Shown piece by piece: positions 19,001 to 53,120 of a DNA stretch of 64,000 nucleotides; the stretch's first letter is position 1, and every line of letters begins with the position of its first letter. Location of the stretch: positions 1 through 64,000 of the forward strand of contig NZ_SMGG01000006.1 in assembly GCF_004339245.1 (NCBI RefSeq), written 5' to 3'. A program made the position numbers and the translations under genes. This stretch comes from Seleniivibrio woodruffii (GTDB taxonomy: Bacteria > Chrysiogenota > Deferribacteres > Deferribacterales > Geovibrionaceae). The notes under the pieces are model-generated. The model had not been told where the DNA came from. It made no database searches and saw only the letters and a program-made list of their open reading frames with translations.

Positions 19001-19026
19001 AAAAACGGGGGACCTTTCAGTCCCCC
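19001..19026 (-). terminator. Terminator after the octahaem nitrite reductase gene
   Basis: A GGGGGAC / GTCCCCC hairpin (19007-19026). On the minus strand it is followed by GTTTTTC. It lies between the reductase and resB, so the two may be separately transcribed or linked by partial read-through. Confidence 0.8.
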
Positions 19027-19042
19027 GATATATGATTGTCTG

Positions 19043-36515: not shown

Positions 36516-37559
36516 TCAGAACAGACCGTTCTTGTCCGTTCCGGAGCCCGAACCGTGGTAATGGCAGTCGGTGCAGTTGGATGAATAGGTGCTGGTATGC
36601 ACAACTTCCTTAAGACCGTTGCCGGCATCTGCACCTGCGGGGTTGGTGTGGCAAACTGCGCAGAGTTCGGAGAAGTTGTTCTCCGTAACCTTCACAGCAG
36701 CGTTTTTGGCGTCACTGTCTGCCAGTGCGGCCGTTTTGCCTGACTCGGTTATCAGATAGGGGTTATCTGACGAGTGAACCTGATGGCAGCTGAGACAGGG
36801 CAGTTCCATGTTGTTGGAATATGTGCCTCTGAAAACTCCGAAGCTCTGTCCGATACCTACTTTAGCACCGTGGATGTCTGCTGTTGACTTCATCTCGCTC
36901 TCTGTGCTTCCAAGCCCTTTGAAGGTTGCAAAAAGGTTCGTGACCTCTGTTTCAAACTTCAGTGCGGGCGGCATCACTCCGAAAGCCCCGTTACCGTCAT
37001 GGCAGTTGAGACAGACTGAGTTGATGTCAGTATACGCCGAGCTTCCTGCGGTGAAATCCACCGTAGGGTCTATAGTACCGTTCATATCCGACCATGCGTG
37101 GCAGACAACGCAGTCTGAGTTGCCTATTTCGCCGTCGCCGTTAAAGTCATGGACGTTGGCTCCGTGGAACATATCAGCGGAATCTTTCCCTACCACAGCC
37201 TCGTCCTTATGGCATGTGAGACACTGATATGTGTCGGCTGTTATGCCCTGAATGCCGTTTGTTCCGTGGCAGTAGAGGCATGCACCGATGTCCGTCTCGC
37301 TGACAGTGTCGAAACTGTCGGCAAGTTTAGTGTTATATGCGTGGATATCCTTAAGTTTCTTGATGTTATGGCAGAGGTAGCACTTGTCGTTGCCCCATGC
37401 AGAGCCGCCGTTGTGGTTCTTGGGCACTGTGAGCTGGGGAGCGTTACCCTTCATATCCCTGATGGGCGAATCTCCGTCGCCGGAGCTACCGCAGGCGGTG
37501 AGCAAAGCCAGAGATGCCAGAATGAATACTGCTATGATGTATCTGGAATATGCTTTCAT
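36516..37559 (-). CDS. Octahaem c-type cytochrome lipoprotein
   Basis: About 347 residues from the ATG at 37559, two bases after the upstream gene's stop and preceded by GGAAGGG. The signal is MKAYSRYIIAVFILASLALLTAC, with lipobox LTAC. Eight CXXCH motifs in order: CYLCH, CLYCH, CLTCH, CVVCH, CLNCH, CLSCH, CAVCH, CTDCH. DFNGDGEIGNSDC may be an EF-hand-like calcium site. As the last gene of the operon, beside a beta-barrel, it is a candidate outer-membrane subunit of a porin-cytochrome conduit. Whether it faces the periplasm or the cell surface cannot be told. Confidence 0.88.
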   Translation of the reverse strand: MKAYSRYIIAVFILASLALLTACGSSGDGDSPIRDMKGNAPQLTVPKNHNGGSAWGNDKCYLCHNIKKLKDIHAYNTKLADSFDTVSETDIGACLYCHGTNGIQGITADTYQCLTCHKDEAVVGKDSADMFHGANVHDFNGDGEIGNSDCVVCHAWSDMNGTIDPTVDFTAGSSAYTDINSVCLNCHDGNGAFGVMPPALKFETEVTNLFATFKGLGSTESEMKSTADIHGAKVGIGQSFGVFRGTYSNNMELPCLSCHQVHSSDNPYLITESGKTAALADSDAKNAAVKVTENNFSELCAVCHTNPAGADAGNGLKEVVHTSTYSSNCTDCHYHGSGSGTDKNGLF

Positions 37560-37561
37560 TT

Positions 37562-38131
37562 TCAACCCTTCCTGTGACATGTGATACAGAAGTCCACCCT
37601 GTGGCATTTGTCGCATGAGCCGGGGTCAATGGTGGCCTCCAGTGAATGCTTCAGCTTGAAAGAGCGGGAGTGTCTGTAGTTTTCAAGTGAGTTCTGCTTG
37701 CTGTGGCAGCTCTCGCAGTACCACTGTTTATGGCATGTTTCGCATGTTTTGCTGTCCAGTTTGGCAGGAACAGAGTGCAGAGTGTTCCAGTTGTTAACGT
37801 GGTCTGCGGGTTTCAGAACCTTCATGTTCTCATGGCATGTGGAACAGTTCTGAGGAGCGGAAGCAACCTTTGTAGGCACGTCACGGTGACATGAGTGACA
37901 CTTGCCGTCGATCTTCAGATCCGCCGCAATTTTGAGCTGTCCGCCGCTTTTTATCATCGTTTCGATGGAGGGCAGTTTATGACAGAAGAAACAGTCCCTT
38001 TTCTGTTGAAAAAGGATGTCCACATGAGCCTCGTGATTGAATTTTGTCACGGGGGACTGATAGTAGAACTGCGAGCATCCGTAGATGACGGGAACGATCA
38101 GCAATATGAGCCATGATAACTTTCTAATCAT
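37562..38131 (-). CDS. Heptahaem c-type cytochrome lipoprotein
   Basis: A 189-residue protein with a lipoprotein signal (LILLIVPVIYGC). Seven motifs: CFFCH, CHSCH, CSTCH, CETCH, CESCH, CDKCH, CITCH, packed at one haem per ~25 residues. This is the density of class III and c7-like electron wires. TKFNHEAHVDILFQQKRDCFFCH resembles cytochrome c7 N-termini. It lies between the beta-barrel gene and the octahaem lipoprotein. It probably carries electrons inside or beside the barrel on the periplasmic side. Confidence 0.88.
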   Translation of the reverse strand: MIRKLSWLILLIVPVIYGCSQFYYQSPVTKFNHEAHVDILFQQKRDCFFCHKLPSIETMIKSGGQLKIAADLKIDGKCHSCHRDVPTKVASAPQNCSTCHENMKVLKPADHVNNWNTLHSVPAKLDSKTCETCHKQWYCESCHSKQNSLENYRHSRSFKLKHSLEATIDPGSCDKCHRVDFCITCHRKG

Positions 38132-38152: not shown

Positions 38153-39397
38153 TTAGAAGCTGTATGCCGCTTTCACGCCATATCTGTTTTCGGGCAGATA
38201 TCTTGTTTTCTGGTTCTTCTCTGCATAAACGCTGAGCTTAAGGTCTTTCCATATTTCATACTCCGCATCTGCATACACGGAATAAATGTTGTCCTCAGTT
38301 GCGTAGTTCTCCAGCCTCAGGTATTCGCTTTCGAATCCGAATTTAAAATCCCTTGTGAGGTTCCAGTCCAGCGCAAGGCTTGCGCCCTTTGCGTTGGAGG
38401 TTACGCTGTCGTAGTAGTAGCCTTCGACATTCGCTGTCACGCCTTTTGTCTTGAACCAGTCAAAATCAGCTCCCAGCTTATATATCTGGCCGTCGACAAC
38501 GTCGCCGCTTGACTGCTCTATTTTTGTGTTAACAACGCTGACATAGGGGGATACGTTCTCGGTGACCGCATACTGTACCGTAAGAGCCAGCTTCTCCTCT
38601 TTTCCTGTTGAAAAGTTGCTGATGATAAGGATGTCCTGATAGTTTGAACCGTCGTTGACATTGTATCTTGTGGCTTCTCCGGTTACTCTCAGTGCGCCCT
38701 TATTAAGGAACACTCTGACAGAACCTCTGTAGAAGTTGCTCTCTTCCATGTCATATTCTCCGTTGGCGTCAACACCTATGCCGTCTTTGCCGCCCAGTGA
38801 GAATACTCTTCCGAGTCCAAGTCCTGCAAACTCCTGATAGGTCATTTCGCTGTCGTACTCTTTAGAGTAGGAAACGTAACCTGTTGTGTCTTTGACACCG
38901 TTAAGGAATATGCGTCCGCCGTAAAGCTTGTCGCCTGTTTTGCGGAATTTTTCGTTGATGTGTCTGCCGTCAGCATCGAAATACTGGGGCTTACCGCCAA
39001 AAGCGGTGACACCGAATTTATAGTCTGTGCGGACAGTGGCTATAGCACCGTCCAGAGTGAGAAATCTGTTGCCGATGTACGAAAAGCGTCCGGCCTTGAC
39101 CTCTACCGCATTCTGAAAGCTGGTGTAGTCCAGATATGCTGAATAGATGTCCGACTGGCTGTCGCTCTCCTCTTCCGAATCTTTGGCAAACCTGCCGTAG
39201 AAACTGAAGCCGAAGTAGGGATCGTAAAGTTTTGCGTTGTCTATGCTCAGATAGTTTTCCCACAGCCTTTCGGTATCCTCGCCTTTGTCTTTGGATATCT
39301 CGTAGGATGTGGAGATGAACCCGTCCACATTGAACCCATACGCGGCCGCCGCCGAGCAGAGCATTACAGCAATTAAAATAAATCTGCTAATTTTCAC
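38153..39397 (-). CDS. Outer-membrane beta-barrel, putative porin of the electron conduit
   Basis: A 414-residue protein with a signal peptide ending AAAYG. Alternating amphipathic strands with aromatic belts (TSYEISKDKG..., FGFSFYGRF, YSAYLDYTSF, YGGRIFLNGV, SLALDWNLTRDFKFGFESEYLRL) run throughout, and the chain ends in AAYSF, the usual C-terminal Phe of outer-membrane barrels. I did not recognise the family, but position among lipoprotein cytochromes makes it the likely MtrB- or PCC-type sheath. It is shorter than MtrB (~700 residues) and closer to Geobacter-type porins of such conduits. Confidence 0.78.
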   Translation of the reverse strand: MKISRFILIAVMLCSAAAAYGFNVDGFISTSYEISKDKGEDTERLWENYLSIDNAKLYDPYFGFSFYGRFAKDSEEESDSQSDIYSAYLDYTSFQNAVEVKAGRFSYIGNRFLTLDGAIATVRTDYKFGVTAFGGKPQYFDADGRHINEKFRKTGDKLYGGRIFLNGVKDTTGYVSYSKEYDSEMTYQEFAGLGLGRVFSLGGKDGIGVDANGEYDMEESNFYRGSVRVFLNKGALRVTGEATRYNVNDGSNYQDILIISNFSTGKEEKLALTVQYAVTENVSPYVSVVNTKIEQSSGDVVDGQIYKLGADFDWFKTKGVTANVEGYYYDSVTSNAKGASLALDWNLTRDFKFGFESEYLRLENYATEDNIYSVYADAEYEIWKDLKLSVYAEKNQKTRYLPENRYGVKAAYSF

Positions 39398-39415: not shown

Positions 39416-41569
39416 TCAGTTTGCCGCCAGATCGGCGAGCGAAAGATTTACAAGTTTAACGACGTATCCGGGGTTGTGGAAACCGCCGCTTCTGTCGTTC
39501 AGTATGAAGTTGTAGTTATACGCCGCACGGTTCAGAGCGTTTGTCTGCGCTGTGGTAGTTCCCGTGTAGGAAGCTTTGATGGCCGCATCGGCTGCTTCTC
39601 CGGCTTTTGCGTTGATTGCCGCTTTAAGTTCGGCGATCTTAGCTTTTGCCGCTGCAACAGTACCAGCCGTAACATCGTAAGTGCCGTTGCTGTATGCAGG
39701 TGCGTTTGTAGTGTGGCAGCCTGTGGTACATCCGGCTATCCTTGCAGCTGTATCGTCTGTCATATCAAGGCTGTGTGTTGTGCCGCCTTGGGTCTTCATA
39801 TGGCATGTGCTGCATCCGGTGGCGGAGTGTGACGATGCCGTAGTGCCCAGATTCTGTCCGTATTCATATCCGCCCACACCGCTGATAAGCTCTGCCTGGG
39901 AGTTGTGGGGGATAGCACCCACTGTGGGAAGCTCTCCGTCGGCATTGTGGCAGTAGTAGCAAAGTTTGCTGTCACCTGCGGCAACAACAGTGCTCTTGGT
40001 GGGAAGAGTGTAGCTTCCGCTTATTCTCAGCTGAGAGTTCTGGCCTGATTCACCGTGGGGGTCGTGGCAGACCGAACAGCCGATGCCCGATATCCTGTCT
40101 GTGTTGGCAGGTGTTATATTCTTGCTGAATATTCTTCCCATCATGCCTTCGCCTGTGTGGCATTTGAAGCATGCCGCATTTTTGGCAACGTTTCCGCCTG
40201 AAAGCTTATGCGCATTGTCGTGTCCGTCTGAATATCCGAAAACGTGTCCGCTCACTGTGCCGTAGTCATGGCATGAGAGACAGACGTTTGATGTTATAGC
40301 TGTATTCTTATAGTGCTTTTCAAAGAAATTTGCACTGCTGCCGTCGTTGGGTCCGTGGCAGGCTTCGCAGGAAACGCTTTTAAGGTGATCGCCGCCTGTG
40401 GAGGCCATTGTGCTCCAGTTGGTTATCTTGTCGTCATAACCTTTCGCATCGCTGAACTCATCAGATCCGTTGCCGTTTCTGTCTGCAAACAGGAAGCCTG
40501 TTGCATGGCACTGGAAGCATCTGGAATCAGTTGATGCAGCCACAGCCGCAAATGAGTTGCCGTGTGCGCTTGCCGCCCAGGGAGTCGTGATTGCTCTGAG
40601 AACATTGCGTCCGTATTTATCAGTAATTCCTGAACCGGCAAATGTGCCGTCATGACAAACAACGCAGGATGCCGAGTTGGTCGCCGTGTTATATGAATAG
40701 TTAAGTGCGTAGAGTGTCACGCTCTCGGTTTTGGTGCTGTTTACGCCCACCAGAGAGAGTGAAACTGTGTATTTGCCTGCGACATCAGGAACGAATGTTG
40801 CATTTGTACCGTTGAGTGTAATAGCCGCAAGAGAGCCTGCGGGCTTTGATGTAAGCGTCCAGTTGAAAGATGTTACAGTATCGCCGAAAGTTACTGTGTC
40901 TATGAACAGCCTTACCTTCTCTCCGGGCTGAACACGATCGATCCCCCTTACGGAATCGGGAAGTGATTTTGCAGAAGGATCCACAAGGAATGAGCTTGCG
41001 GCGGCGGCAGCTCTGTAGCTGACAGCCTCAAACTTGATTATCCCTGTGAGAGATGATTCCGACTGTTCTTTTTTAAGACCCACGAAGAAACTTGCAGGTA
41101 CGCTCCCCACAGCGGTAACATCACTGCCCGAACCATGGCTGGATGTAAGTTTTGTCACCGAACTGCCTGAAAGAATGCATACGGCTGTGTCTGCTGCCGA
41201 TCCGCCCTCGTTGGCGAGAATAGTGCTGCTGTAGGGCAGTGTAACCGTCAGTGCGTAAACCGCATCGGCCTTGTCAGCCACACTCACCGTATAGACGGGA
41301 GAGAGGGACACATAGCCGTCAACAGAGTACTCTGCGTCAGATTTTTCTATATAAACAGTTTTGCCTGCCAGTCCTGCCGCTGTTCCGCTGAGAGCGAAAC
41401 CGGCCATCTCTCCGCTTCCGGTATAGGCAACTTTGCCGTCGGAACCGACAGTAGTGGTAACGATTATTCTGGTATCGTCATCAACGGAAGATTTTGTGCT
41501 TCCGCCGCCCAGACATGCTGTCAGAGCAAAAAGCGATACGGCAACAAGCAAAAATTTAATCAATCTCAT
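39416..41569 (-). CDS. Nonahaem c-type cytochrome lipoprotein with N-terminal Ig/PKD-like region
   Basis: A 717-residue protein with a lipoprotein signal (FALTAC). Residues ~25-295 are haem-free and beta-rich, ending in a PKD-like segment (VAGKYTVSLSLVGVNSTKTESVTLYAL). The haem region follows: CVVCH, CFQCH, CEACH, CLSCH, CFKCH, CSVCH, CYYCH, CSTCH and a ninth site CTTGCH (CX3CH). The last ~100 residues are Ala-rich helix ending in NDRSGGFHNPGYV, a phrase also found near the end of nitrite-reductase-like multihaem proteins. It is a likely outer-membrane terminal reductase or conduit subunit. Confidence 0.88.
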   Translation of the reverse strand: MRLIKFLLVAVSLFALTACLGGGSTKSSVDDDTRIIVTTTVGSDGKVAYTGSGEMAGFALSGTAAGLAGKTVYIEKSDAEYSVDGYVSLSPVYTVSVADKADAVYALTVTLPYSSTILANEGGSAADTAVCILSGSSVTKLTSSHGSGSDVTAVGSVPASFFVGLKKEQSESSLTGIIKFEAVSYRAAAAASSFLVDPSAKSLPDSVRGIDRVQPGEKVRLFIDTVTFGDTVTSFNWTLTSKPAGSLAAITLNGTNATFVPDVAGKYTVSLSLVGVNSTKTESVTLYALNYSYNTATNSASCVVCHDGTFAGSGITDKYGRNVLRAITTPWAASAHGNSFAAVAASTDSRCFQCHATGFLFADRNGNGSDEFSDAKGYDDKITNWSTMASTGGDHLKSVSCEACHGPNDGSSANFFEKHYKNTAITSNVCLSCHDYGTVSGHVFGYSDGHDNAHKLSGGNVAKNAACFKCHTGEGMMGRIFSKNITPANTDRISGIGCSVCHDPHGESGQNSQLRISGSYTLPTKSTVVAAGDSKLCYYCHNADGELPTVGAIPHNSQAELISGVGGYEYGQNLGTTASSHSATGCSTCHMKTQGGTTHSLDMTDDTAARIAGCTTGCHTTNAPAYSNGTYDVTAGTVAAAKAKIAELKAAINAKAGEAADAAIKASYTGTTTAQTNALNRAAYNYNFILNDRSGGFHNPGYVVKLVNLSLADLAAN

Positions 41570-41585: not shown

Positions 41586-42563
41586 CTACTCTGCGGACAT
41601 TCCTTCCAGAGCATCAAGCAGGTCCTTTGCTTCTTCAGGTTCATGACACTTCGCACACAGAGCCTCACGTCCGCCCTCAACAGACAGCAGTTTGTCGTTG
41701 TCCGAATAGTGGGGGCTGTGGCAGTCTGCGCACTCGATATCCTTGTTCAGTTTCTCGACCCTCACTCCCTTCACAGGGTGGGCTTTCATATAGCCCTTGG
41801 TGTGGAAGTTGTCCTCAGGGTTTCCGGAATCGTGACACTCGTTGCAGAGGTCGTCGATGGGTTTTCTGAGGTGCGTTCTGTTGGTCGACTTATGGGGTGA
41901 ATGACATATGGTGCAGTATCCCTCGATAACGGGTGAGTGAACCATAGGCATTGAGTCTATTTTCTCTTTCATCTGAGTGTGACACTTCAGACAGGTCTCC
42001 GCAAAAGGCTCGTGGGGAATGAATCCCTGCGCCTGGTCGTGGCACTCGAAACATTTAGCCTCTTTAACAGGTTTGTGAACCCATGCGCCGAGGAACTTGT
42101 CGCTGTGACAGTTAACACAGTCGCTCAGGTTGTCAAACTTATGGCAGTTAAGGCATATATCCTTATTTGTACTCTTGTGGAAACCGTTAAGTCCCTCTGT
42201 CCAGTCCGCAACCTTTGCCGCAGTGTCGATCCTGTTTATCACAAACGACTTTTTCTCGTCCCCCTGTGATATGTTGATCTTGTTCTCTCCGTCCTCAAGG
42301 CGCAGAATGGTCATAAGCATGTAATAGTCGTGTCCGGCGGTGTCCTTTGCTCTGATGAGCTTCTTCTCGGTGACTGCGCCGTTTATCTCAATTTTTACGG
42401 GCGTGTTGTTAGCAAGTCTGCCTATAACGTGTATATTGCTGACAGCTTTCATATTCTGAGACATGGGGAAGATGATCTGCATCTCGGCCCTGGCCTCAGT
42501 TGCAAAAACAAGACTACTCAGAGTCAATATTGTAATTATCAGGCAGTTTAATCGCGTCCGCAT
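41586..42563 (-). CDS. Octahaem periplasmic cytochrome c
   Basis: About 325 residues from the ATG at 42563 (GGAG 12 bases upstream), overlapping the preceding gene by 50 bases. The signal peptide ends ATEARA. A ~110-residue haem-free beta domain (MQIIFPMSQNMKAVSNIHVIGRL) precedes eight motifs: CLNCH, CVNCH, CFECH, CLKCH, CTICH, CNECH, CADCH, CAKCH. CSPH/CHSPHKSTNRTHLRKP segments resemble the doubled-CXXCH repeat family. It is probably a soluble periplasmic carrier between the inner-membrane module and the conduit. Confidence 0.87.
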   Translation of the reverse strand: MRTRLNCLIITILTLSSLVFATEARAEMQIIFPMSQNMKAVSNIHVIGRLANNTPVKIEINGAVTEKKLIRAKDTAGHDYYMLMTILRLEDGENKINISQGDEKKSFVINRIDTAAKVADWTEGLNGFHKSTNKDICLNCHKFDNLSDCVNCHSDKFLGAWVHKPVKEAKCFECHDQAQGFIPHEPFAETCLKCHTQMKEKIDSMPMVHSPVIEGYCTICHSPHKSTNRTHLRKPIDDLCNECHDSGNPEDNFHTKGYMKAHPVKGVRVEKLNKDIECADCHSPHYSDNDKLLSVEGGREALCAKCHEPEEAKDLLDALEGMSAE

Positions 42564-43383
42564 TCTTTTTGTCTCCATCCGCTTCATACAGCATTTTCAA
42601 ATAATAATTTAATCTGTTCTCAGACTTATATTTTCCTTTCAGTGCGCTCAGGATCTCGATGGCTTTTTTGTTGTCTCCGCCGAGATAGTATGCCAGTCCT
42701 GTGTAGAACCTGCACTCTGTCTCTTTGCAGGCCGAAAGAACCTCAAGAGCTTTGTCGGGTGATTTCAGTCTGAGATACGTCTGCCCCAGAAGGAGCTTAC
42801 CTTTATCGTCAAGTTTGTCCGCCGGAATTCCCTCCAGCTCTTTCAGAGCCGCATTCGTCTCTCCCTTTTTGGCAAGAAGGAGGACAAAATTCATTCTGGG
42901 GACTATTTTCTTATACAGTTCGGCACTTTCAGCAGCCTGCAGACGTTCTGCAAGCTGCTTACTGTCGGCTTTCCCTGATATGTAATCCAGATAAATTTCG
43001 ATTTTCGTATTGAAGCTGCTCTCGCTCTCTATTGCTCCAACAAGCTTGTTCTGCTTGTAAAACTCCATATATGGCAAATGTTTGTCTGTTTTGCCCTTGT
43101 AGATGGCGTTTTCGTTGTGCCCTTTAAAGCTCTCCGCAACCTCTTCAGTCGTCTTTTCAGTGCTTTCCGCAGCAATGCATGTCACCGCAGGGTGAGCTCC
43201 GCACTCTTTCAGAAAGTCAGCAAGCAGGCTGACATTGAAACGGTTTTTTCCGTCAAAATACAATACTGCTCTGTTGCCGGTCACGGGCTTTGCGGTCGGG
43301 AAAACAGGTTTCAGCTCATCCGCAGCCTGTGCAGAAACCGCAAACAGTACGCCCGTCAGTATACCTGCTATTTTAGTTCTCAC
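42514..43383 (-). CDS. Secreted TPR-like protein of the cytochrome operon
   Basis: A 289-residue protein with a signal peptide (ILTGVLFAVSAQA). The N-terminal ~120 residues have a thioredoxin-like or alpha/beta pattern without the CXXC motif. The C-terminal half consists of TPR-like helices (RMNFVLLLAKKGETNAALKELEGI, LLLGQTYLRLKSPDKALEVL, GLAYYLGGDNKKAIEILSAL). No haem site. It overlaps both neighbours (four and 50 bases), so strong co-expression is expected. A role in assembly of the 28-haem protein is plausible but inferred. Confidence 0.75.
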   Translation of the reverse strand: MRTKIAGILTGVLFAVSAQAADELKPVFPTAKPVTGNRAVLYFDGKNRFNVSLLADFLKECGAHPAVTCIAAESTEKTTEEVAESFKGHNENAIYKGKTDKHLPYMEFYKQNKLVGAIESESSFNTKIEIYLDYISGKADSKQLAERLQAAESAELYKKIVPRMNFVLLLAKKGETNAALKELEGIPADKLDDKGKLLLGQTYLRLKSPDKALEVLSACKETECRFYTGLAYYLGGDNKKAIEILSALKGKYKSENRLNYYLKMLYEADGDKKNADAIKLPDNYNIDSE

Positions 43384-46300
43384 TTTGCGCCCTCAATTTT
43401 TTCAAGGTTCCTTTGTATTTCAAACAGGTTCTTAAGAACCTCAGCCTCAAGCATCTTTCTGTTCAGCTGGCTTCTGCCGTCACGGAACGTCTTATCGTGG
43501 TATTTATCGAACAGGTCTTTTGCCTGTGTCTCACCGTGACATACCGCACAGAACTTGTCTTTCACTCCCGATTTAAGGAAGCTGTTCGTGGGATCGCCCT
43601 CAACGTTGTACGCTGCGGTCATTGAACCGCCTGCCTTCCATACGTGGGGGTTGTGACAGCTCTGGCATGTGATGGAGCCTTCAGCGGATACCAGTCCCTT
43701 ATCGTTGAAGAGGTTCTCTTTGAACTTCTCCCTGTAGGGGAATATCTTGAAGATTCTGTCGTGTGCCGTCTCAACGGGTATCTTTTTATAGCCTACGCCG
43801 TCTGTTTTGTGGCAGTCGCTGCACATTTCAAAGGCGAAAGGCTCTTTTCCGTTGGGTTTGTATGCCCACATCAGCCTGTTTTCCTTGTGGAAGTTGTGGG
43901 GTGTGTGGCATGCATAGCAAACGTTTGCCGCCGCCTTCTTCTTGTCGTTCTCGTTCAGGTAATCCAGCTTGGCAAGGTTGTGTTTGGTCATGTCCACCAG
44001 CTTCTGGTCTTCGTGACATGCGAAACATATGTTCTTCTCGCCCATGTCTCTCAGCATTCCCTTTTCGGGGCCGTGGGGTTCATGGCAAGTCGCACAGACT
44101 ATGTTTCCGTCCTGCAGATAAATATCCATGTTCTTCTTAGGCTTCACATTCATCTTGTGGCTGGATGTGATAGCCGTTTTGGAAGCGATGCCGGAATCTG
44201 AATGACAGCTTGCGCATATCTTCTCAAAGTCTTTGCCCATGGATTTATCGAACAGGTAATATCCGCCGTTGCCGTGAACCTCGTGGCATGCGCCGCAAGT
44301 GTCGTTGGCAGCCTTAAGTTTATTAACCTTCTCTGTGTTCTTCTCAAACTTGTTTACGTTATGAGGGGACTTGTCGAAGGACTGTTTGTCCTCGTGACAG
44401 CCCGCACAGAAACCGCCTTTGCTCATGAGCTTCTTATCGAGGAAGCTGTTCTGAACCGTACCCTCTGCGCCTTTTTTCGGGCCGTTGGAGTGGACAGTGT
44501 GACAGGTTGAGCAATAGATATAGTAATTGCCGTCCTTGTCTTTTGTCAGGTTCTTCTCATACTTCTGATATTTATCAATTTTGCCTGTTTTGTGTCCGCC
44601 GCTCACAGTCTTCTTGTCCGCATGGCCTTTGGGGTTGTGGCATGCGATGCAGTTGTCGTCTTTGGTCTTGTATGCATACTCCACGGTCATCATGTTGACG
44701 GGTGTTTTTGCATTGTGGACGCTGTGGCATGAGGCGCAGACAGCCTCTTTATCGGTTTTGCGCATGTCGTGGTCTGTGCCTGCGATCTCTTTCTGAGTCT
44801 GGTGGCATGCTGAGCAGAATGAATCCTGATCTGCAAATCCGCCCCTCATGAAATCCTTAACAGTGCCTTTTTTGGACTGTTTGTGGGGATCGTGGCAGCT
44901 TACGCATGTGAAAGTTCCGTCTTTAGTGAGTTTGAAGTCGCCTGTCATCTGCATTTTGGTCTTCATGTTGACAGGGTGAGAGTGCTCGCCGATGAGCTTT
45001 TTCTCGCCGCTTCCGCCCACTTTGTGGCAGTCAAGACAGCCATCGTTGACAGCAACTGTCAGCAGTCTTTCGCTGTCGCTGTTGTGTACCTTGTGACAGG
45101 ACATACAGCTCTTTTCGTTCTTCTTGTCGCCGTGAGATGTCTTGGCGATCATCTCTTTCTCTTTATGGCATGTGATGCAGAGTGTTCCGTTCTCAACGCC
45201 GATTCTCAGCGCATTGGGGTTCTTGCCGTGAATATCGTGGCATGTGGAGCAGTTCACATCGGTTTTGCTCTGGTCGGAACCCATCGTGGTGAAGAATCTG
45301 ACTATTTTGGCGAACAGAGGAAGTTTTTCATTCTTCTGCATATCCTTTTTCAGACCTTTGCCCACTGGGTGGTTGAACTTCTTGGTATCTATTATCTTCT
45401 TCGCACCGACAGCACCTTCGGTGTGGCAGCTTACGCATCCTTTGGTAAGGAGGTCGCCTTCGCCTGCGAATCCCGCAGACCAGCCGTGGGGTGCGTGGCA
45501 GCTTCCGCATGTTCCGGCCTGCTGAGCAGATTTGCCGTCTTTAGTGCGGAATCCTTTGGCAGTAAGCATGTCGTGCTTGCCGCCTGCGATCTCTTTCTTG
45601 TTGTTGTGGCAGGTGTAGCAGAGTTTATTATCGGAGTTTTCCGTAACAAGCAGTCCGTCAGCCTTTGCCTTGTGGGTGGAGTGACACGTTGAGCAGATTA
45701 CTTTGCTGTCCTTGGTGTATATTCCGCCGCTCTTTATCATCTCAAGCATATCGCTCTGTTTGGTGTGCTTTATGTTCACGGGGTGAGTGAGCATACCTTT
45801 GATGTACTCGCCGGATTTGGCATCCACCACGCCTTCGTGGCATACGCCGCATATCTTGGAGTCCGTCAGAGATTCGATAAGCAGTTTGGTCTCTTTAGGT
45901 GAGTGAGGGGTATGGCAGCTTTCGCAGACGACCTGTCCTTTGCTGCCCAGCTTTCCATAGCGGGATCTGACCTCTTTGGCCATGTTCTCATATCCGCTCT
46001 GGGGAGCTTTCAGGGGGTGGCTTATGTTGCCGTCCTTTCCTATCTCCTTGTGGCAGGCTACGCAAAGTTCAGAGTTGTTGTTCTCCATACGCAGGAAAAC
46101 GCTCTTGTCTATCTTGTCGTTCTTGGGGTCGCCTGTTGAGTGTGCGGAGTGGCAGGTGCGGCAGGCTATCTTGCCCTTTTCAAGGGGCAGGTTGCCTGGA
46201 ATTTTCATATGTTCGGGTATCTTGTCGGTGAGTTTGTGCATCTCGCCTGACCAGACCCTGATCCTGCTGTCGGCAACGGAGCCGTTGTGGCAGCTGAAAC

Positions 46301-46505
46301 ACATCTTGTCGCTGGCCACCACTTTTTCCTTCTGGTAGTCAACGACCTCTGTCCCTTTCAGATCATAAAGGAACTGAGGCATCCATTCATAGTGGCAGAA
46401 TGCGCACTCTTTGGATGAATCGGGGTTGCTTTTTGTCACGTCAGCTGCGAAGGCCGCAGGTGCGGACAGAACTATAAGTGTGAGCAGGAGAAGAAGCTTT
46501 CTCAT
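43380..46505 (-). CDS. 28-haem c-type cytochrome
   Basis: A 1041-residue exported protein (signal ending APAAFA) with 28 CXXCH motifs counted one by one, from CAFCH near residue 34 to CAVCH near the end. They are about one per 37 residues and many continue as CXXCH-x-x-H (for example CSTCHSTH, CMSCHKVH, CVSCHDPH, CGACHEVH), the doubled-CXXCH type. Internal modules repeat (CESCHTPH, CSTCHDIH, CATCHEPH), suggesting growth by duplication. No membrane anchor or lipobox is seen, so it is periplasmic or secreted. It could act as a long electron wire or a capacitor. Four-base overlaps with both neighbours indicate coupled translation. Confidence 0.92.
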   Translation of the reverse strand: MRKLLLLLTLIVLSAPAAFAADVTKSNPDSSKECAFCHYEWMPQFLYDLKGTEVVDYQKEKVVASDKMCFSCHNGSVADSRIRVWSGEMHKLTDKIPEHMKIPGNLPLEKGKIACRTCHSAHSTGDPKNDKIDKSVFLRMENNNSELCVACHKEIGKDGNISHPLKAPQSGYENMAKEVRSRYGKLGSKGQVVCESCHTPHSPKETKLLIESLTDSKICGVCHEGVVDAKSGEYIKGMLTHPVNIKHTKQSDMLEMIKSGGIYTKDSKVICSTCHSTHKAKADGLLVTENSDNKLCYTCHNNKKEIAGGKHDMLTAKGFRTKDGKSAQQAGTCGSCHAPHGWSAGFAGEGDLLTKGCVSCHTEGAVGAKKIIDTKKFNHPVGKGLKKDMQKNEKLPLFAKIVRFFTTMGSDQSKTDVNCSTCHDIHGKNPNALRIGVENGTLCITCHKEKEMIAKTSHGDKKNEKSCMSCHKVHNSDSERLLTVAVNDGCLDCHKVGGSGEKKLIGEHSHPVNMKTKMQMTGDFKLTKDGTFTCVSCHDPHKQSKKGTVKDFMRGGFADQDSFCSACHQTQKEIAGTDHDMRKTDKEAVCASCHSVHNAKTPVNMMTVEYAYKTKDDNCIACHNPKGHADKKTVSGGHKTGKIDKYQKYEKNLTKDKDGNYYIYCSTCHTVHSNGPKKGAEGTVQNSFLDKKLMSKGGFCAGCHEDKQSFDKSPHNVNKFEKNTEKVNKLKAANDTCGACHEVHGNGGYYLFDKSMGKDFEKICASCHSDSGIASKTAITSSHKMNVKPKKNMDIYLQDGNIVCATCHEPHGPEKGMLRDMGEKNICFACHEDQKLVDMTKHNLAKLDYLNENDKKKAAANVCYACHTPHNFHKENRLMWAYKPNGKEPFAFEMCSDCHKTDGVGYKKIPVETAHDRIFKIFPYREKFKENLFNDKGLVSAEGSITCQSCHNPHVWKAGGSMTAAYNVEGDPTNSFLKSGVKDKFCAVCHGETQAKDLFDKYHDKTFRDGRSQLNRKMLEAEVLKNLFEIQRNLEKIEGAK

Positions 46506-47389
46506 TTTCCACCCCTCAGCTCATAAACAGTGACAGACTTTGCAAATGCATCCACCACCGCCAGATATCTTCCGTTGATCCTCATGTGGGTTATTGAGTC
46601 GAACTTCAGCTTTCTGCCGTTCTTGTCTTTCAGAACGCCTGCAAACTTTCCGTCCTCGTCAAAATACTGGATGACGCCTGTGAAGCCGTCACCGACAAAA
46701 AGGGTAGTGCCGCCGAGAACCGCAACACCAGTGGGTCTGTAGAACTCTCCGGCACCGATTCCCCATTTGCCTATATTCTCATAAAACTTGAAATCTTTAG
46801 TGATCTTCTGGACACGGGTGCCCAGAGCTTCGGAAACATAGAGAACGCCTCTTTTGTCCGTAGCCAGCGCAAATGGATACCAGAACTCAAGTTTTCCGTT
46901 TCCGAAACCGCCCACGGTCTGTTCGACCGCTTTGGTTCCCAGATGTGTCTTTAAAACACGGTGGTTGTCGTTGTCCACCGTATAGACATATCCTCCGGAC
47001 ACCAGAGCATCGGTGGGGTCATATTTCCCTTTTATGCCTGCGGGCAGTCCGAACGTACTGAACTTATCCAGACCTGCTGTCAGCATGTCCAGTGAGTTTT
47101 CTGTGCTGTTGCAGTAAAGGAAGTAGTTACCGTTCTTAACAAGACAGTTCCCGCCTTTAAGGAAAGACTTCTGAACTGATTTGACGGCTCTTCCGTTCCT
47201 GTAAACCGTATATGTTCCGCCGAATGCGTCATATACGCCTGTGCTGGCATCGCTTTCCACAACCACATCTCCGGGTGCAGCATTGTCTTTCAGCTGCACT
47301 TTATAGAGAAGTGATGCTGTCACCTGGGCAGCATCACTTATTGCGGCAATACTAAAAAGCAGAATTACGGCAAAGATCTTAATTTTCAC
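46502..47389 (-). CDS. Secreted NHL-repeat beta-propeller
   Basis: A 295-residue protein with a signal peptide ending AISDA. Repeated blades match the NHL pattern: DPTDALVSGGYVYTVDNDNHRVLK, YPFALATDKRGVLYVSEALGTRVQKI, RPTGVAVLGGTTLFVGDGFTGVIQYF. Probably a six-bladed propeller. No haem motif. NHL proteins are found beside large multihaem cytochromes in metal reducers, where they may scaffold the complex or be peptidyl partners. It overlaps the 28-haem gene by four bases and the trihaem gene by 11. Confidence 0.82.
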   Translation of the reverse strand: MKIKIFAVILLFSIAAISDAAQVTASLLYKVQLKDNAAPGDVVVESDASTGVYDAFGGTYTVYRNGRAVKSVQKSFLKGGNCLVKNGNYFLYCNSTENSLDMLTAGLDKFSTFGLPAGIKGKYDPTDALVSGGYVYTVDNDNHRVLKTHLGTKAVEQTVGGFGNGKLEFWYPFALATDKRGVLYVSEALGTRVQKITKDFKFYENIGKWGIGAGEFYRPTGVAVLGGTTLFVGDGFTGVIQYFDEDGKFAGVLKDKNGRKLKFDSITHMRINGRYLAVVDAFAKSVTVYELRGGK

Positions 47390-48239
47390 TCTCTTGTCCC
47401 TCTGCAGGTTTCAGGAAGTTGGGGATGAAGAACTCTTTGTATTTGTCCACCATACCGACAACTTCGTTGCCTACGAGCTGGTTAGCTCTTCTTTCAGGAT
47501 AGCCGATCTTCGCAAAAGGCAGGTATGCCTTATAGGAGTCGGAAGTGTGGCAATCCTCACAGTTAACAGTGTCCTTAAGCTCGGTCATGGGTCTGTGGAT
47601 AACTTTCAGAGATGCGCTCTTTGCTGAGGGCACCATGTTGTTAACCTGAGCCTTGAACTCGCCTACGTATTTTTTCATCTGCTCATTGTCATAGAATCTC
47701 TCGCCGGAGTTCTTAAGAGGCATGAGCTTATAGGGCGTGTCTTTCAGATAGCTTGAAAGGTCTATCTTGTCCTTCTCTTTTCCTGTGGCTTTTTCATACC
47801 ATACAAACTTGGTGTCGGCTTTGCTTTCCGCCTTTATGTGGCAAGTTTCGCATGCCATGAAGTATGCGTGCATATTCAGGAAAGCCCTGACCTCTTTCTT
47901 TTTGTCGTGGGGAACGTCGCCATGGCAGGAGACGCAGAGGTTCTGCTTGTCCTCAATGGCCGTTCTCTTGGTTTCGTGGAAATCATAAAGCTTGTGGCTG
48001 CTGTTTATGTCCTTAGACCCGCTGCCATGTCCGTCGGTGTCGTTGACACCCTTTATCATCTCCTGATACAGCTTGTCCTCTTTGCTCATTCCGACTGTGG
48101 TCTCCTCGTGGGAGGCTTTGTGCCAGATGTGCATTACGAGTATCTGAATTATATATCCGCAGTATACAAGAATAAGTATACCCAGCAGACAGTAGATTAT
48201 CCTTTTAGGTCCAACCTTAACGTGGTGGTGCTCAGACAT
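47379..48239 (-). CDS. Membrane-anchored trihaem cytochrome c
   Basis: A 286-residue protein with an uncleaved N-terminal membrane helix (IIYCLLGILILVYCGYIIQILVM) after a short His-rich cytoplasmic start (MSEHHHVKVGPKR). Three haem sites: CVSCH, CETCH, CEDCH. It starts at the stop of the cytochrome b gene (one-base overlap), so they almost certainly form one inner-membrane complex, with this subunit taking electrons from cytochrome b. Confidence 0.87.
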   Translation of the reverse strand: MSEHHHVKVGPKRIIYCLLGILILVYCGYIIQILVMHIWHKASHEETTVGMSKEDKLYQEMIKGVNDTDGHGSGSKDINSSHKLYDFHETKRTAIEDKQNLCVSCHGDVPHDKKKEVRAFLNMHAYFMACETCHIKAESKADTKFVWYEKATGKEKDKIDLSSYLKDTPYKLMPLKNSGERFYDNEQMKKYVGEFKAQVNNMVPSAKSASLKVIHRPMTELKDTVNCEDCHTSDSYKAYLPFAKIGYPERRANQLVGNEVVGMVDKYKEFFIPNFLKPAEGQESEN

Positions 48240-49141
48240 TACTTATCCCCCTTTTCGCTCTTTTCATTTTCCTGAAGGAAAGAAATCTGACCTCTGATAA
48301 TTTCGAGCTTCTCAGCATCTTCCAGTTTCTGCGCTTCTTTCTGTGCATCGATGTCGAGCAGATATGAGGAGTCTTTCTCAACTATTTTGTTGATACGGGC
48401 CCACTCAACATAATACTCGTGTTTCATCAGGTCTTCGGGAAGATAGCCTGTTATGAACAGCGGCGACACAGGGAACTTGTCGTAGTTTATATGTGCGTTG
48501 TACATGTGCCATATAAAGATAACGCTCACCGCCAGCATCGCTTCGTCAGAGTGTGCGATGTAGCTGATGTTGATCGCCCAGCCGGGAAGGAATGAAGCAG
48601 CCCAAACAGGGAACCACAGGAAAAGTCCGGTGATGCCGAGAACGGGAATACCCCAAAACACCGCCCAGTAGTCAAACTTCTCTCTCCAGTGGAATCTTTC
48701 GTGTTTGGGTCTGTCATCGGAGATGAACAGCGCAAACTTGACGAAATCCGCTATGTCCTTTCCGTCTTTCGCACGGGGACACATGGGAGAATAGTAAACA
48801 AAGAGACCCAGCTCTTTCCATGAGAAAGTTCCGGTTCTTCTTGCGGGGCCGGCATAGTATTGCCAGATGTTTTTAAACAGGTAATACCAGTGATAGAAGA
48901 ACAGACCGCACATTGTAACGCCTGCTATTCTGTGCAGAATTCTTGTAACAGGGAGACCGCCGAAGAAATCTATAACGGGTTTAGCCCAGTCATAGTAGTG
49001 GAATTTCAGCGGGAAGCCCGTAAGGGTCAGCATAAGGAAAGTTGTCATGAGGATATAGTGCTGAGCCTTCTGGTTTCCTGTTATTTTCAGGTAATGTCTC
49101 TTACCGTCTTTAATTTTTATAAGGGGCAGTTTTCTCATCAT
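48239..49141 (-). CDS. Di-haem cytochrome b, putative quinol dehydrogenase subunit
   Basis: A 300-residue membrane protein like the gamma subunit of formate dehydrogenase or Ni-Fe hydrogenase cytochrome b. Four to five membrane segments: HYILMTTFLMLTLTGFPLKFHYY, ILHRIAGVTMCGLFFYHWYYLFKNI, FWGIPVLGITGLFLWFPVW, SDEAMLAVSVIFIWHMYNAHIN. His residues in helices 1, 2 and 4 are candidate haem b ligands. The C-terminal ~50 residues are a charged helix. In this operon it would oxidise menaquinol and pass electrons to the adjacent multihaem subunits, as proposed for Cbc complexes of Geobacter. Confidence 0.88.
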   Translation of the reverse strand: MMRKLPLIKIKDGKRHYLKITGNQKAQHYILMTTFLMLTLTGFPLKFHYYDWAKPVIDFFGGLPVTRILHRIAGVTMCGLFFYHWYYLFKNIWQYYAGPARRTGTFSWKELGLFVYYSPMCPRAKDGKDIADFVKFALFISDDRPKHERFHWREKFDYWAVFWGIPVLGITGLFLWFPVWAASFLPGWAINISYIAHSDEAMLAVSVIFIWHMYNAHINYDKFPVSPLFITGYLPEDLMKHEYYVEWARINKIVEKDSSYLLDIDAQKEAQKLEDAEKLEIIRGQISFLQENEKSEKGDK

Positions 49142-49153: not shown

Positions 49154-50203
49154 TTAGTCCTTTTTTTTGCGTCTGAAGCTCAGGTTCGGGAACATCTCTC
49201 TGATAAGTTCCAGAATCATGAGACCAAGCAGCGGGTAGAATGCACCGATTGTAAGAATGGTGAAGCCAAGCGCCACATAAAACTCTATGGGGTAGATATC
49301 TTTGTCGATAACAGAGTGCATCCTGATCATGCCGAACTCCTTAGTGGGGTTGACGTGACAGTTTGAATCCTGGCAAGCAAGATATCTGTTTGATTCATAC
49401 GTTGCGCTGTCAGGGCTTCTCCAACTGCGTATCTTGTGAGCGGATTCGCCTTTCTTAACGTGACAGTCGATACAGCTGGGAGCGTTGGGCATTCCAAACT
49501 CAACAGCCTTTCCGTGGAATGTGTCGAGATAGGTTGCGGCAGCATTTTTCATTTTATGCTTCGTTGCCATCTCTTCTTTGGAGTGACATTTACTGCAGGT
49601 CTTTACAACGTCCTCAGAGGGAGCAAGGTTTTTGATCCTGTGGGTGACGTGTTCAAAGAAATAACGGTAGTCGACGTTGTTTGCGTGACATACGGCACAT
49701 TTCTGAAGGATCCTCTCCTTGTGTCTTGCCTCGTCAACCGACTCAACATCGCCTATCTGAAAGCGGTATTGGGGGTTTTTGTGGCAGTTTGTACAGGTGG
49801 GGAAATCATCCACTATCTTGGCTCTGACATAGGGGTTGTCAGGGTTGTGGATACTCTGTTTGAGGTCATCAAAGATCTTTTTGTGTGAAAAAGGTTTTTC
49901 CGAGCCTGCATTTGTGACGTGACACTCGGTTGAGCAGTCAACAGGCTTCATCTCTTTGTGAGGTATCTCTTTGATATCGACGTGACAGCCGGTACATTTC
50001 ACTTTTGTGTGAACTGTATGGTTGTAGTTCTCCGAATCAACATAGAATACTCTCAGGTATCCCTCGTTGTTCACGCGGGTCAGGCCGGGGTACTTGTGGC
50101 ACATCATACAGTTTTCACCATCGGTGACAACTGAAGCCCTGGCCGTTCCGCAGGTCATAAAGAGACTGAAGACCATGACGGCAATAAAACAGTATATTCT
50201 CAT
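49154..50203 (-). CDS. Octahaem membrane cytochrome c with non-canonical haem sites
   Basis: About 349 residues from the ATG at 50203 (GGAG six bases upstream). An N-terminal signal (IYCFIAVMVFSLFMTCGTARA) and a C-terminal membrane helix (FYVALGFTILTIGAFYPLLGLMILELI) leave the haem domain in the periplasm. Sites in order: CMMCH, CTGCH, CSTECH (CX3CH), CTNCH, CAVCH, CSKCH, CIDCH, CQDSNCH (CX4CH). The pattern resembles NapC/NrfH-related and Cbc-type multihaem quinol dehydrogenase subunits. First gene of the 11-gene operon, directly before the cytochrome b. Confidence 0.87.
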   Translation of the reverse strand: MRIYCFIAVMVFSLFMTCGTARASVVTDGENCMMCHKYPGLTRVNNEGYLRVFYVDSENYNHTVHTKVKCTGCHVDIKEIPHKEMKPVDCSTECHVTNAGSEKPFSHKKIFDDLKQSIHNPDNPYVRAKIVDDFPTCTNCHKNPQYRFQIGDVESVDEARHKERILQKCAVCHANNVDYRYFFEHVTHRIKNLAPSEDVVKTCSKCHSKEEMATKHKMKNAAATYLDTFHGKAVEFGMPNAPSCIDCHVKKGESAHKIRSWRSPDSATYESNRYLACQDSNCHVNPTKEFGMIRMHSVIDKDIYPIEFYVALGFTILTIGAFYPLLGLMILELIREMFPNLSFRRKKKD

Positions 50204-50254
50204 CATCAGCTCCAAATAAATGATTGAGTTAGCCTATATTACGGCTATTTTCAT

Positions 50255-50609: not shown

Positions 50610-53120
50610 TTACTGAGCAAGCTGCAGTATTTCGTTCTTAGTAGATTTGTTAGTTTTGTAACCGAATGTTGTAGCGTGAGCTCTGATTGCAGCTGCATCG
50701 CTGATGTTACCTTTGTGACAGCTTGTACAAGCAGCCGCATTGGGTCCGATTACTGTGTCATCTGCATGAGATGCAAGGTTTGCGCCCTGCTCAACAGTTA
50801 CAGCAACAGCTTTAGTCTGGTCAGCAACATTGAATGTTCCTGCGGGGTGACAAGCTGTACAGCTGGTGATCGCACGGGGATAATGTACCTGAACGTCCTG
50901 CCACATGGAAGCTGTTCCGCCTACGCCGAAGTTAGCAGGCTGAGCAGATTCGCCGCGGAATGAGTAGATACCTCTTGTACGGTAAACCATATAAGCTGTG
51001 TCTGTGTCAGTTGCAGAGTGAATGTTGTGAAGCATTACTTTCAGGTCATAAGACTCTTCAGTTTTGCCGTCAGCAGTTACATTGTAACCCTGAGCTGCAA
51101 GAGTAGTTCTCGGTGACTTGTCAGTTGCGTTAGCATTGTGACATGTTACGCAAAGCTCAATGTTGTTGATTCTGTTGTGTCCGTGTCCGAGGAAGTCAGT
51201 GTGACAGTTCAGACAGAGGTTGATATCAACAGCGGAACGACGTGCAGTAGCTGCAGAGTTGTCTCTGTTGAAGTTTTTAGTAACAGAGTCAACGATTGCA
51301 AGGTAACCTGTGCCGCCGGACCAAACAACGGGTACACCCTGAATTGCAACGATACCTTTAGTGGCTGTTACAGTTGCGGGAATTGTGAATGTTGTTTCAA
51401 ATACATCAGTAGTTCCAACTTCTGAAGTGTTACCGGATCCTACTGCAACGTTCAGAGTAGGCTGACCACCCTGAGAAGTGATACCCTGGTTAGTAAGGTC
51501 ATCACCGGTGTAGAAACCGATCACCATAGATGTTGCATATGACTGGAAAGCTCTGGCAGCATCTGCTGATGAAGGAGAAGTACCTACGAATACAGCGTCG
51601 TTTGCAGCTGTTGTTCTTTTCAGAACATCGTAGTTTGTTGAAGTGTTAGTGTTGTACGCTCTCCAAGTAACTTTTCCTGTGTTGCCAGTGATTGTAACAG
51701 ACTGGATTTCGTAAGCGATGTTTTTGCCAAGAGAAACTTCCATGTTATGGAGGTTGCCAGCGTGGATGTCTTCAAGTGAAGTAGGAGCAATTGCGCCTGC
51801 AGCACCAGTGTGGCAAGTTACGCATACATTGTCGTTAGCGGCTACAGTGTATGAAGAGTGGATTGACTTAAGTGTGTCATTCATAGGGATAGTTTCCCAA
51901 GGAGTGCTACCATGGCAAGTTACGCAAAGTGACAGTCTGAATTTAGAGTTGTCGGTTGCGTTTGCAAGCTGGTCAGCAGTTGTGTGGCAAACTGAGCACT
52001 CAGACATGTTGCTGGGGAAACCGATATTGAATCCGTCTTCATCAGGATAACCTTTAAGAGCATTACCATCTGTATCTTTTCCGCTTTCATACATAGCAGA
52101 AGCGTGAACGCCATGCACACGACCAACAAGAGAAGATCTTGAGTTGGACACATATGCGGGCTGGTTAGTGCCATCATAAGATGCACCACCAATGTGGCAA
52201 GTTACGCAGTCATCTGCATCTGCTCTGAGAACGTTGTTGTGATGATAGTTGAACTCGTTATCACCGTGACATTTGATACAGCTGGGAGCAGAACCCTTGT
52301 CACTAACATAGTTTCTGGGGTTGTTAGAGCTGTTAACATCATAGTCAACGCCTGCAACAAGCAGTCTCTGAACGTTGAAACCATCTTTCAGGTTACCTCT
52401 GTAGATGTCAGAAGCAGCATTTGCTCCGTCAGCATCTGAAGAAGTTGCACCGATCATAAGTGTTTCAGCAAGATAAGGTGTCAGGTTAGCATCAGCAGCA
52501 ATAGTCACAGTGTAGTTGTTACCTGAATCCAGTACAGCAACGCGGTTGCTGAAGTTAGCTGCTGTAGCAGGTGCAATGTTTACCCATCTGTCATAGTTTG
52601 CAAGGGTATTATCATCCTGATAACGGTTGATAGTGAATGAAACAAAATCAGCCGCAGGGTTAAAAGCAGCACCAGTTGAAGTTATAGTGATATCAACAGT
52701 AAGAGAGTTATCTCCGTTAACTACCACATCAGTGATGTTTGCACTCCAAGCTGTTTTGAAGTTACGCACTTCACGAACCACCGGAGCGGAATCGTTAGCT
52801 CCCTGATGGCCTTTAACGAGATAATCACCGCCGTGAGCGGGGTCGTTAGTTTTGCCGTCAGCGTGGCAAGTTGCGCAAGATTCAACAGCAGTGATTTTGC
52901 CAGTTGAAGCAAGTTCAGCTTCAAGAGCTGCGATTGCATCTTCGTACTGAGCAATAGTGATAGCACCGCTTTCAAGCTGTGCCTTAAGCTCGGCAATGAT
53001 AGCCGCCGTGTCTGCATCAGCACCATTGGCGCCGTCAGAGCCGTCTGAGCCGCCGCAACCTACCAGCATGAACGAGCAGGTGAGGGCGAGCATCAAAAGA
53101 AATAAAATTCTTCTCGACAT
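50610..53120 (-). CDS. OmcA/MtrC-family decahaem c-type cytochrome (surface lipoprotein)
   Basis: An 836-residue lipoprotein (lipobox LVGC then GGSDGSDGANGADAD, a flexible linker). A short helical segment at ~35-75 precedes CATCH. The ten sites are CATCH, CIKCH, CVTCH, CSVCH, CVTCH, CVTCH, CLNCH, CVTCH, CTACH and CTSCH. They are arranged as two clusters separated by beta-rich segments (for example VTITGNTGKVTWRAYNTNTSTNYDVL), as in the four-domain OmcA/MtrC fold. The family forms the extracellular terminus of electron conduits reducing Fe(III), Mn(IV), flavins or electrodes. GGAGG precedes the ATG. It has its own promoter, a ~260-base leader with two RNA structures, and its own terminator. 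Confidence 0.92.
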   Translation of the reverse strand: MSRRILFLLMLALTCSFMLVGCGGSDGSDGANGADADTAAIIAELKAQLESGAITIAQYEDAIAALEAELASTGKITAVESCATCHADGKTNDPAHGGDYLVKGHQGANDSAPVVREVRNFKTAWSANITDVVVNGDNSLTVDITITSTGAAFNPAADFVSFTINRYQDDNTLANYDRWVNIAPATAANFSNRVAVLDSGNNYTVTIAADANLTPYLAETLMIGATSSDADGANAASDIYRGNLKDGFNVQRLLVAGVDYDVNSSNNPRNYVSDKGSAPSCIKCHGDNEFNYHHNNVLRADADDCVTCHIGGASYDGTNQPAYVSNSRSSLVGRVHGVHASAMYESGKDTDGNALKGYPDEDGFNIGFPSNMSECSVCHTTADQLANATDNSKFRLSLCVTCHGSTPWETIPMNDTLKSIHSSYTVAANDNVCVTCHTGAAGAIAPTSLEDIHAGNLHNMEVSLGKNIAYEIQSVTITGNTGKVTWRAYNTNTSTNYDVLKRTTAANDAVFVGTSPSSADAARAFQSYATSMVIGFYTGDDLTNQGITSQGGQPTLNVAVGSGNTSEVGTTDVFETTFTIPATVTATKGIVAIQGVPVVWSGGTGYLAIVDSVTKNFNRDNSAATARRSAVDINLCLNCHTDFLGHGHNRINNIELCVTCHNANATDKSPRTTLAAQGYNVTADGKTEESYDLKVMLHNIHSATDTDTAYMVYRTRGIYSFRGESAQPANFGVGGTASMWQDVQVHYPRAITSCTACHPAGTFNVADQTKAVAVTVEQGANLASHADDTVIGPNAAACTSCHKGNISDAAAIRAHATTFGYKTNKSTKNEILQLAQ

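Follow-up and report, generated by a model that had tools for sequence, protein, structure and literature searches.

A conserved 28-haem cytochrome of Deferribacterota as a probable, MtrA-like periplasmic wire

In extracellular respiration, small shuttling cytochromes are the usual explanation of how electrons cross the periplasm. Here we analyze a stretch of 64,000 nucleotides from Seleniivibrio woodruffii (assembly GCF_004339245.1, contig NZ_SMGG01000006.1, positions 1 to 64,000; "the window"), which belongs to contig 6 of a 2.9 Mb genome, and in it the gene for a cytochrome with 28 CXXCH haem-binding motifs, hereafter H28. One of the closest described systems comes from Deferribacter. In the genome of D. 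autotrophicus, 17 multihaem genes are reported, each with between 2 and 28 motifs, and a cluster that includes 28- and 10-haem proteins recurs in the same order in D. desulfuricans (PMC6896113). This 19-gene, multi-cytochrome cluster (FHQ18_02900-02990 / DEFDS_0741-60) has been proposed to serve Fe(III) reduction or to be a remnant thereof (PMC6896113, PMC13186404), the D. desulfuricans copy being called a remnant of metal reduction (via PMC6896113). Loci G010-G015 of our comparison resemble it in having a two-component system, a cytochrome b, an NHL protein and many cytochromes; its 28-haem cytochrome is very probably the same protein as H28, and its locus tags would be those of genes in these loci. 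The parts of the two papers available to us give the haem count and a drawing of the cluster, and in them we found neither an analysis of repeats nor a ligand pattern, nor any link to porin-type loci.

There are precedents both for the size of H28 and for the idea of a wire that spans the periplasm. Cytochromes with 27 and 34 haems are on record for Geobacter metallireducens, and the PCC3 cytochromes (Sideroxydans, Gallionellaceae), with 21-27 haems, have been proposed to span the periplasm (PMC10734462). Apparently unreported, in those portions of the searched literature that were accessible, are a haem number fixed at 28 across the order, a tetrahaem alternation in the register of MtrA, a ligand gap at haem 1, and the pairing of a single inner cassette with outer exits of two kinds. 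We consider it probable that H28 is a periplasmic wire, which links a CbcL-type quinol oxidoreductase to an exit in the outer membrane and conducts electrons from the one to the other.

The gene lies at 43380-46505, where an earlier interpretation of the letters (hereafter the sequence-only reading) had placed it, and is encoded on the minus strand, which that reading had left unstated (Table 1). Its count of 28 CXXCH motifs in one polypeptide is borne out on the 1041-residue product. The motifs account for all 56 cysteines, among 2000 composition-preserving shuffles the mean number of CXXCH was 0.17 and the highest 3, and no other C-x(n)-CH spacing, with n from 1 to 19, was found in H28. Two doubled-CXXCH models include the protein well above their cut-offs (PF09699, 198.5 bits against 20.6; TIGR01905, 151.3 bits against 25.2). 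The predicted signal peptide without an anchor agrees with our heuristics, which found a signal-peptide-like start (hydrophobic over residues 1-24), no lipobox and no second hydrophobic segment. The general picture of a large, exported multihaem cytochrome meant for electron transfer, with potential bis-His ligation, is likewise supported. One detail was wrong: most CXXCH motifs were said to be followed by x-x-His, and CXXCHxxH occurs at 13 of the 28.

The number of haems does not vary among relatives. Whole-genome searches of 50 genomes, all Deferribacterota, gave matches to H28 at E ≤ 0.001 in 23, comprising 17 long copies (the window's included), one half-length copy (G026) and 5 fragments or weak partial matches. 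All 16 complete orthologues, again counting that of the window, keep 28 CXXCH and 13 CXXCHxxH, with the 15 others at 35-83% identity to the window's H28; the remaining long copy (G016) runs off the end of its contig with 27 CXXCH visible. The lengths of the loops between modules differ from one orthologue to another. A scan of contigs from 84,980 species with patterns drawn from the single H28 protein returned one match, a metagenome-assembled genome of S. woodruffii (Deferribacterota, Geovibrionaceae; 82% identity in the best segment, 83% over the pair). A tblastn search of 72,556 plasmid records with H28 returned no match, and a plasmid origin was rejected on that basis.

Repeated doubled-CXXCH modules had been proposed for H28, and the doubled motifs are present; the true unit, however, appears to be a tetrahaem block made of two alternating module types. 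Across modules 1-14 of the window protein, the conserved His of the second haem is offset by +17, +11, +18, +11, +18, +11, +16, +11, +15, +11, +15, +11, +16 and +13, and the alternation holds in all 16 orthologue rows, with +9 to +13 in even modules and +14 to +19, once +29, in odd ones. When modules 2-14 are divided in all 1716 ways that keep the sizes of the odd and even classes, the odd/even split gives the highest within-class similarity (averaged over the 16 orthologues), and it ranks second once the haem motifs are masked. Because the distal-His alternation is strict and the modules resemble one another by odd/even class, we read the repeat unit of H28, on these sequence grounds, as four haems. 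A plain two-haem repeat was rejected, as two module types alternate. The 13-haem protein encoded next to H28 in G010 has no such alternation (one sequence, by eye), which argues that the pattern is no general artefact of doubled-CXXCH proteins.

This tetrahaem unit has a counterpart in MtrA. The top sequence match of an H28 family profile in the PDB is MtrA (6r2q_A, E 1.9e-16); we take 6r2q to be the MtrCAB structure, with which its sequence agrees, the molecule name in the PDB listing being wrong. Two runs of MtrA (131-202 and 205-294) align in one register on haems 11-14 of H28, and by its ligand spacing H28 appears to share the tetrahaem unit of MtrA, CX2CHX2H / CX2CHX10H / CX2CHX2H / a longer-spaced His. 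In this register H28 would consist of six tetrahaem units with a two-haem cap at each end. The tetrahaem chain of STC is reported to superpose on haems 2-5 and 6-9 of MtrA, in which edge distances are 3.9-6.5 Å and the chain measures 80 Å (PMC7198977). Scaled from MtrA (80 Å over nine steps), an extended H28 would reach ~240 Å, a figure that is arithmetic and not structure. H28 has 36.5 mature residues per haem, near the wire-like ratio of ~33 given for MtrA homologues (PMC5566968), and we count this in favor of a wire. The calculated mass of the mature apoprotein is 113.2 kDa, which 28 haems would raise to about 130 kDa.

Beyond the 28 motif histidines, a further 27 are invariant in all 16 orthologue rows, and exactly one of them follows each haem except haem 1 (C34-H38). 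Those outside CXXCHxxH lie 9-19 residues past the motif His, once 29; where a row of the spacing table offered two candidates, the aligned invariant His was taken. The potential bis-His ligands of the sequence-only reading thus have invariant candidates at 27 of 28 haems. The pattern is one ligand short, with the gap in module 1, although the pairing of histidines with haems is unreadable from sequence. Near haem 1, K32 and K50 are invariant alongside Met42 (Table 1). As a separate observation, the 3-haem protein encoded nearby (47379-48239) has four invariant extra His for three haems; that one of them could be spare and serve, for example, the ligand-short haem 1 of H28 is pure speculation.

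Read leftward along the window, the genes encode a kinase, a sigma-54 regulator, a 10-haem lipoprotein, a 6-haem protein, a cytochrome b, a 3-haem protein, the NHL protein and H28, followed by a TPR protein, an 8-haem protein, an 8-haem lipoprotein, a porin candidate, a 7-haem lipoprotein and an 8-haem probable lipoprotein. The inner part of this array is conserved. The NHL gene is immediately upstream of H28 in all 17 loci with a long copy (its frame in G019 has one stop), and the order 6-haem/b/3-haem/NHL/H28 is found in 16 of them; in G027 part of the 6-haem gene lies beyond the contig edge, and in the 17th locus (G016) the contig ends within the 3-haem gene. Over the 50 genomes, the NHL, 3-haem and b genes track H28, whereas the outer genes differ. 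Family f1, to which the window belongs, has TPR, 8-haem, lipoprotein, porin, 7-haem and 8-haem genes downstream of H28. Families f3-f5 have, where the contig allows, 13-haem, TPR, 8-haem, a second NHL, kinase and regulator genes. The TPR gene adjoins H28 solely in f1 (9 of 9 f1 genomes with intact H28); in f3-f5 the 13-haem gene sits between the two wherever the contig shows it. In G037 a porin gene directly follows, sharing 8 bases with the end of H28, and after it come the 7-haem gene and a shorter 8-haem relative. These comparisons bear on a further proposal of the sequence-only reading, a stoichiometric complex of H28 with the NHL and TPR proteins. The four-base overlaps on which it was built are real (46502/46505 with NHL, 43380/43383 with TPR), but overlapping genes show coupled translation and not a complex, and only the NHL gene is a constant neighbor; we find no support for the complex.

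The outer genes would provide two kinds of exit. The porin candidate ends in Phe in 11 of 11 sequences. A tetrahaem gene of G010 (L044:18413-19015) matches PDB 7tfs, which we take to be OmcE, at E 2.4e-19. Long matches of this kind span about 180-201 of 201 residues and come from G008 and G010-G015; f1 yielded no long match, only short weak ones in two genomes. In the f3-f5 type of locus, the OmcE-like genes near the H28 cassette may be candidates for nanowire subunits. The matches of H28 itself to filament cytochromes are all short (7tfs, E 3.5e-6; OmcS, E 4e-4).

On the inner side, all 16 of 16 b proteins carry Hx13H as well as Hx14H, and the resemblance is to cytochrome b of the FdnI/Ni-hydrogenase kind. 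The window copy scores 40.5 bits on PF01292 (cut-off 30.1), as a HydC/FdnI-like cytochrome b domain, and is matched by FdnI models below their cut-offs. In G049 a single fused protein of 659 amino acids has 11 CXXCH, and fused forms also occur in G039. The window 6-haem protein aligns to the first half of the G049 fusion and the b protein to the second (35% identity over 230 columns). Since both align to halves of one fused protein, the pair is best called a split CbcL-type oxidoreductase, a label for which the haem-domain alignment is the weaker half, as shared CXXCH spacing contributes to it. For the CbcL of Geobacter, nine CX2CH and a HydC/FdnI-like b domain are described (PMC6295460). Like CbcL, MtrH and MtoC, the window's unit joins a multihaem domain to such a cytochrome b; those proteins have both domains on one polypeptide, whereas the window and its relatives have separate genes and an additional 3-haem subunit.

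If H28 is a periplasmic wire, menaquinol would be oxidized by an inner-membrane unit made of the anchored 6-haem protein, the b-type cytochrome and the 3-haem subunit. H28, an MtrA-type haem chain lengthened to 28, would then take electrons from the oxidoreductase and carry them over the periplasm to an outer-membrane exit, formed by the porin and cytochrome lipoproteins in the window's family and perhaps by OmcE-like nanowire subunits in other families. H28 would accordingly sit in the periplasm with a linear geometry, the electrons would move outward, and the function would be extracellular respiration. We hold a stricter version to be possible but doubtful, in which H28 would be both a wire and a molecular ruler: a single polypeptide would span the whole periplasm (~240 Å), with a Met- or partner-ligated haem 1 as docking plug, and the haem number would be frozen at 28 because it must fit a fixed quinol oxidoreductase to an outer-membrane exit. 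Families would then have swapped the exit (porin and lipoprotein cytochromes, or OmcE-like nanowires) and kept the cable.

Several results weigh against a wire. A related cluster is also present in D. desulfuricans, described as non-iron-reducing (PMC6896113). On the DmsE/MtrA model TIGR03508, H28 scores 152.9 bits, below the cut-off of 192.2; of three orthologues, that of G010 passes at 212.2 (summed over six stretches) and the others fail at 143.4 and 154.6, and in place of the ten haems of that family there are 28 in all 16 complete orthologues. Distant homologues of the b cytochrome occur in genomes with no H28 (G039, G044, G047, G048, G049). The set can also be broken. G026, from the same genus (L040:8596-9909), has H28 from about residue 603 onward, with the last 11 haems only; its outer genes are intact, its 3-haem, b and NHL genes were not found, and the remnant adjoins an unrelated GGDEF gene. 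G008 retains the 6-haem/b/3-haem trio and OmcE-like genes while H28 is gone. The parts of the cassette are therefore not inseparable, although both breaks could be either real deletions or assembly faults. AlphaFold2 gave no usable model, neither for the whole protein with a two-row alignment (predicted local distance difference test, pLDDT, 25.8; predicted template modeling score, pTM, 0.19) nor for one tetrahaem unit with 12 internal-repeat rows (pLDDT 37.2, pTM 0.25). Finally, the location in the periplasm rather than outside the cell is one that we infer. We also note that in G008 (L057:3483-3839), judged by eye, an NHL-like N-terminus is joined to the end of a Fis-like regulator, which is what a deletion reaching from H28 to the regulator would leave.

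The fixed haem number and the gene order also bear on other roles. H28 might mainly be an electron store, a compact or flexible capacitor that buffers 28 electrons between quinol oxidation and intermittent acceptors. Such a capacity follows from the motif count, the variable loops between modules would suit a flexible chain, and both wire and store roles are named for the PCC3 cytochromes (PMC10734462). However, a store has no need for exactly 28 haems down to 35% identity, and the fixed order beside quinol oxidoreductase genes suits a conduit; neither counterpoint is decisive, a wire also stores charge, and we regard storage as the main role as unlikely. The signal peptide without an anchor would fit export of H28 to an extracellular role, either as a large terminal cytochrome or as a subunit of a filament, and very large extracellular cytochromes are reported for PCC3 (10-35 and more haems) and large outer-surface ones for Geobacter (27-34 haems). 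We think this quite improbable, as H28 is tied in both types of locus to the inner-membrane genes and not to the outer ones, and as a separate OmcE-like gene already offers a candidate filament subunit in one of them. Very little credence, in our view, attaches to a catalytic H28 whose haem 1 would offer an open site to a soluble acceptor as substrate. Haem 1 is alone in having no invariant extra His, and M42, K32 and K50 are invariant nearby, but a ligand could come from Met42 or from a partner protein, no model of a catalytic family scores up to its cut-off, and the context suggests no substrate beyond quinol.

Table 1. Features of H28 and of its surroundings in the window
Feature	Coordinates	Strand	Remarks
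H28, 28-haem cytochrome	43380..46505	minus	1041 aa, 28 CXXCH, signal peptide, no anchor
Signal-peptide-like N-terminus of H28, residues 1-20, ...AAFA/AD	46446..46505	minus	hydropathy and sequence
N-terminal cap module m1, haems 1-2	46182..46424	minus	haem 1 without conserved distal His
Haem-1 site CAFCHYEWM, residues 34-42, with Met42	46380..46406	minus	Met42 invariant in 16/16 rows
Putative tetrahaem unit 1, modules 2+3, haems 3-6	45714..46181	minus	
Putative tetrahaem unit 2, modules 4+5, haems 7-10	45270..45713	minus	
Putative tetrahaem unit 3, modules 6+7, haems 11-14	44925..45269	minus	stretch aligned by MtrA (6r2q_A)
Putative tetrahaem unit 4, modules 8+9, haems 15-18	44532..44924	minus	
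Putative tetrahaem unit 5, modules 10+11, haems 19-22	44115..44531	minus	
Putative tetrahaem unit 6, modules 12+13, haems 23-26	43686..44114	minus	
C-terminal cap module m14, haems 27-28, and charged C-terminal tail	43383..43685	minus	
Histidine kinase with receiver and PAS domains	55067..56905	minus	
Sigma-54 response regulator	53697..55070	minus	candidate regulator
OmcA/MtrC-like 10-haem lipoprotein	50610..53120	minus	not constant in relatives
Membrane-anchored cytochrome, 6 CXXCH + one CX3CH + one CX4CH	49154..50215	minus	collinear with haem half of CbcL-like fusion
b-type cytochrome, FdnI/HydC-like	48239..49141	minus	Hx13H and Hx14H
Tri-haem cytochrome	47379..48239	minus	N-terminal membrane segment
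NHL-repeat secreted protein	46502..47389	minus	constant neighbor upstream of H28
Secreted TPR-like protein	42514..43383	minus	
8-haem doubled-CXXCH cytochrome	41586..42587	minus	signal peptide
8-haem lipoprotein cytochrome	39416..41569	minus	717 aa
Candidate outer-membrane porin	38153..39397	minus	414 aa, C-terminal Phe, no Pfam match
7-haem lipoprotein cytochrome	37562..38131	minus	
8-haem cytochrome, probable lipoprotein	36516..37616	minus	LLTAC by eye, past first 40 residues of lipobox scan

Some neighboring genes have features of their own. The 717-residue lipoprotein has 8 CXXCH in the window copy and 7 in nine relatives. The genome encodes three OmcA/MtrC-like proteins (the window's, at 50610-53120, and those at G000:C5:192454-194826 and G000:C7:174506-176725), which share 81% and 63% identity over residues 1-95 and 35-41% over the remainder, as if the lipoprotein N-terminus had been exchanged or separately selected. 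Elsewhere in the window, genes for cytochrome c assembly, of the Cytochrom_C_asm and ResB families, stand beside a cytochrome c552/NrfA-like gene with 6 CXXCH (16483-20713), and an open reading frame of 915 amino acids (9710-12457) unites in a single protein matches to M1 peptidase, to ChaN-like haem-binding and to PDZ.

Should H28 be a wire, a cytochrome of fixed haem number that connects a quinol oxidoreductase to exchangeable exits would be a different solution to crossing the periplasm. The invariance of 28 leads to a prediction: one tetrahaem unit more or fewer should break export if length matters, and the same change should be tolerated if H28 is merely a store.

Giant cytochromes akin to H28 are already known, and among them H28 makes a striking variant without founding a class of its own. 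OmcE has its likeness in the loci of other genomes, where an OmcE-like gene is a neighbor of H28 and not H28 itself. The PCC3 cytochromes are like H28 in their large haem number and are described with a porin partner and an inner-membrane protein of the di-b-haem type. The inner-membrane motifs of PCC3, SGxxG and two Wx3Hx13H (PMC5566968), were found in none of the 16 b proteins of the H28 loci, and membership of PCC3 was rejected as both motifs fail throughout; the H28 loci also differ in the additional haem subunits of their inner-membrane unit and in the NHL gene that goes with it. Another close counterpart is MtrA, which sits inside the 26-strand porin MtrB and has 10 haems to the 28 of H28. 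H28 is of an ordinary kind but of unusual extent, a variant of the MtrA-like wire cytochromes.

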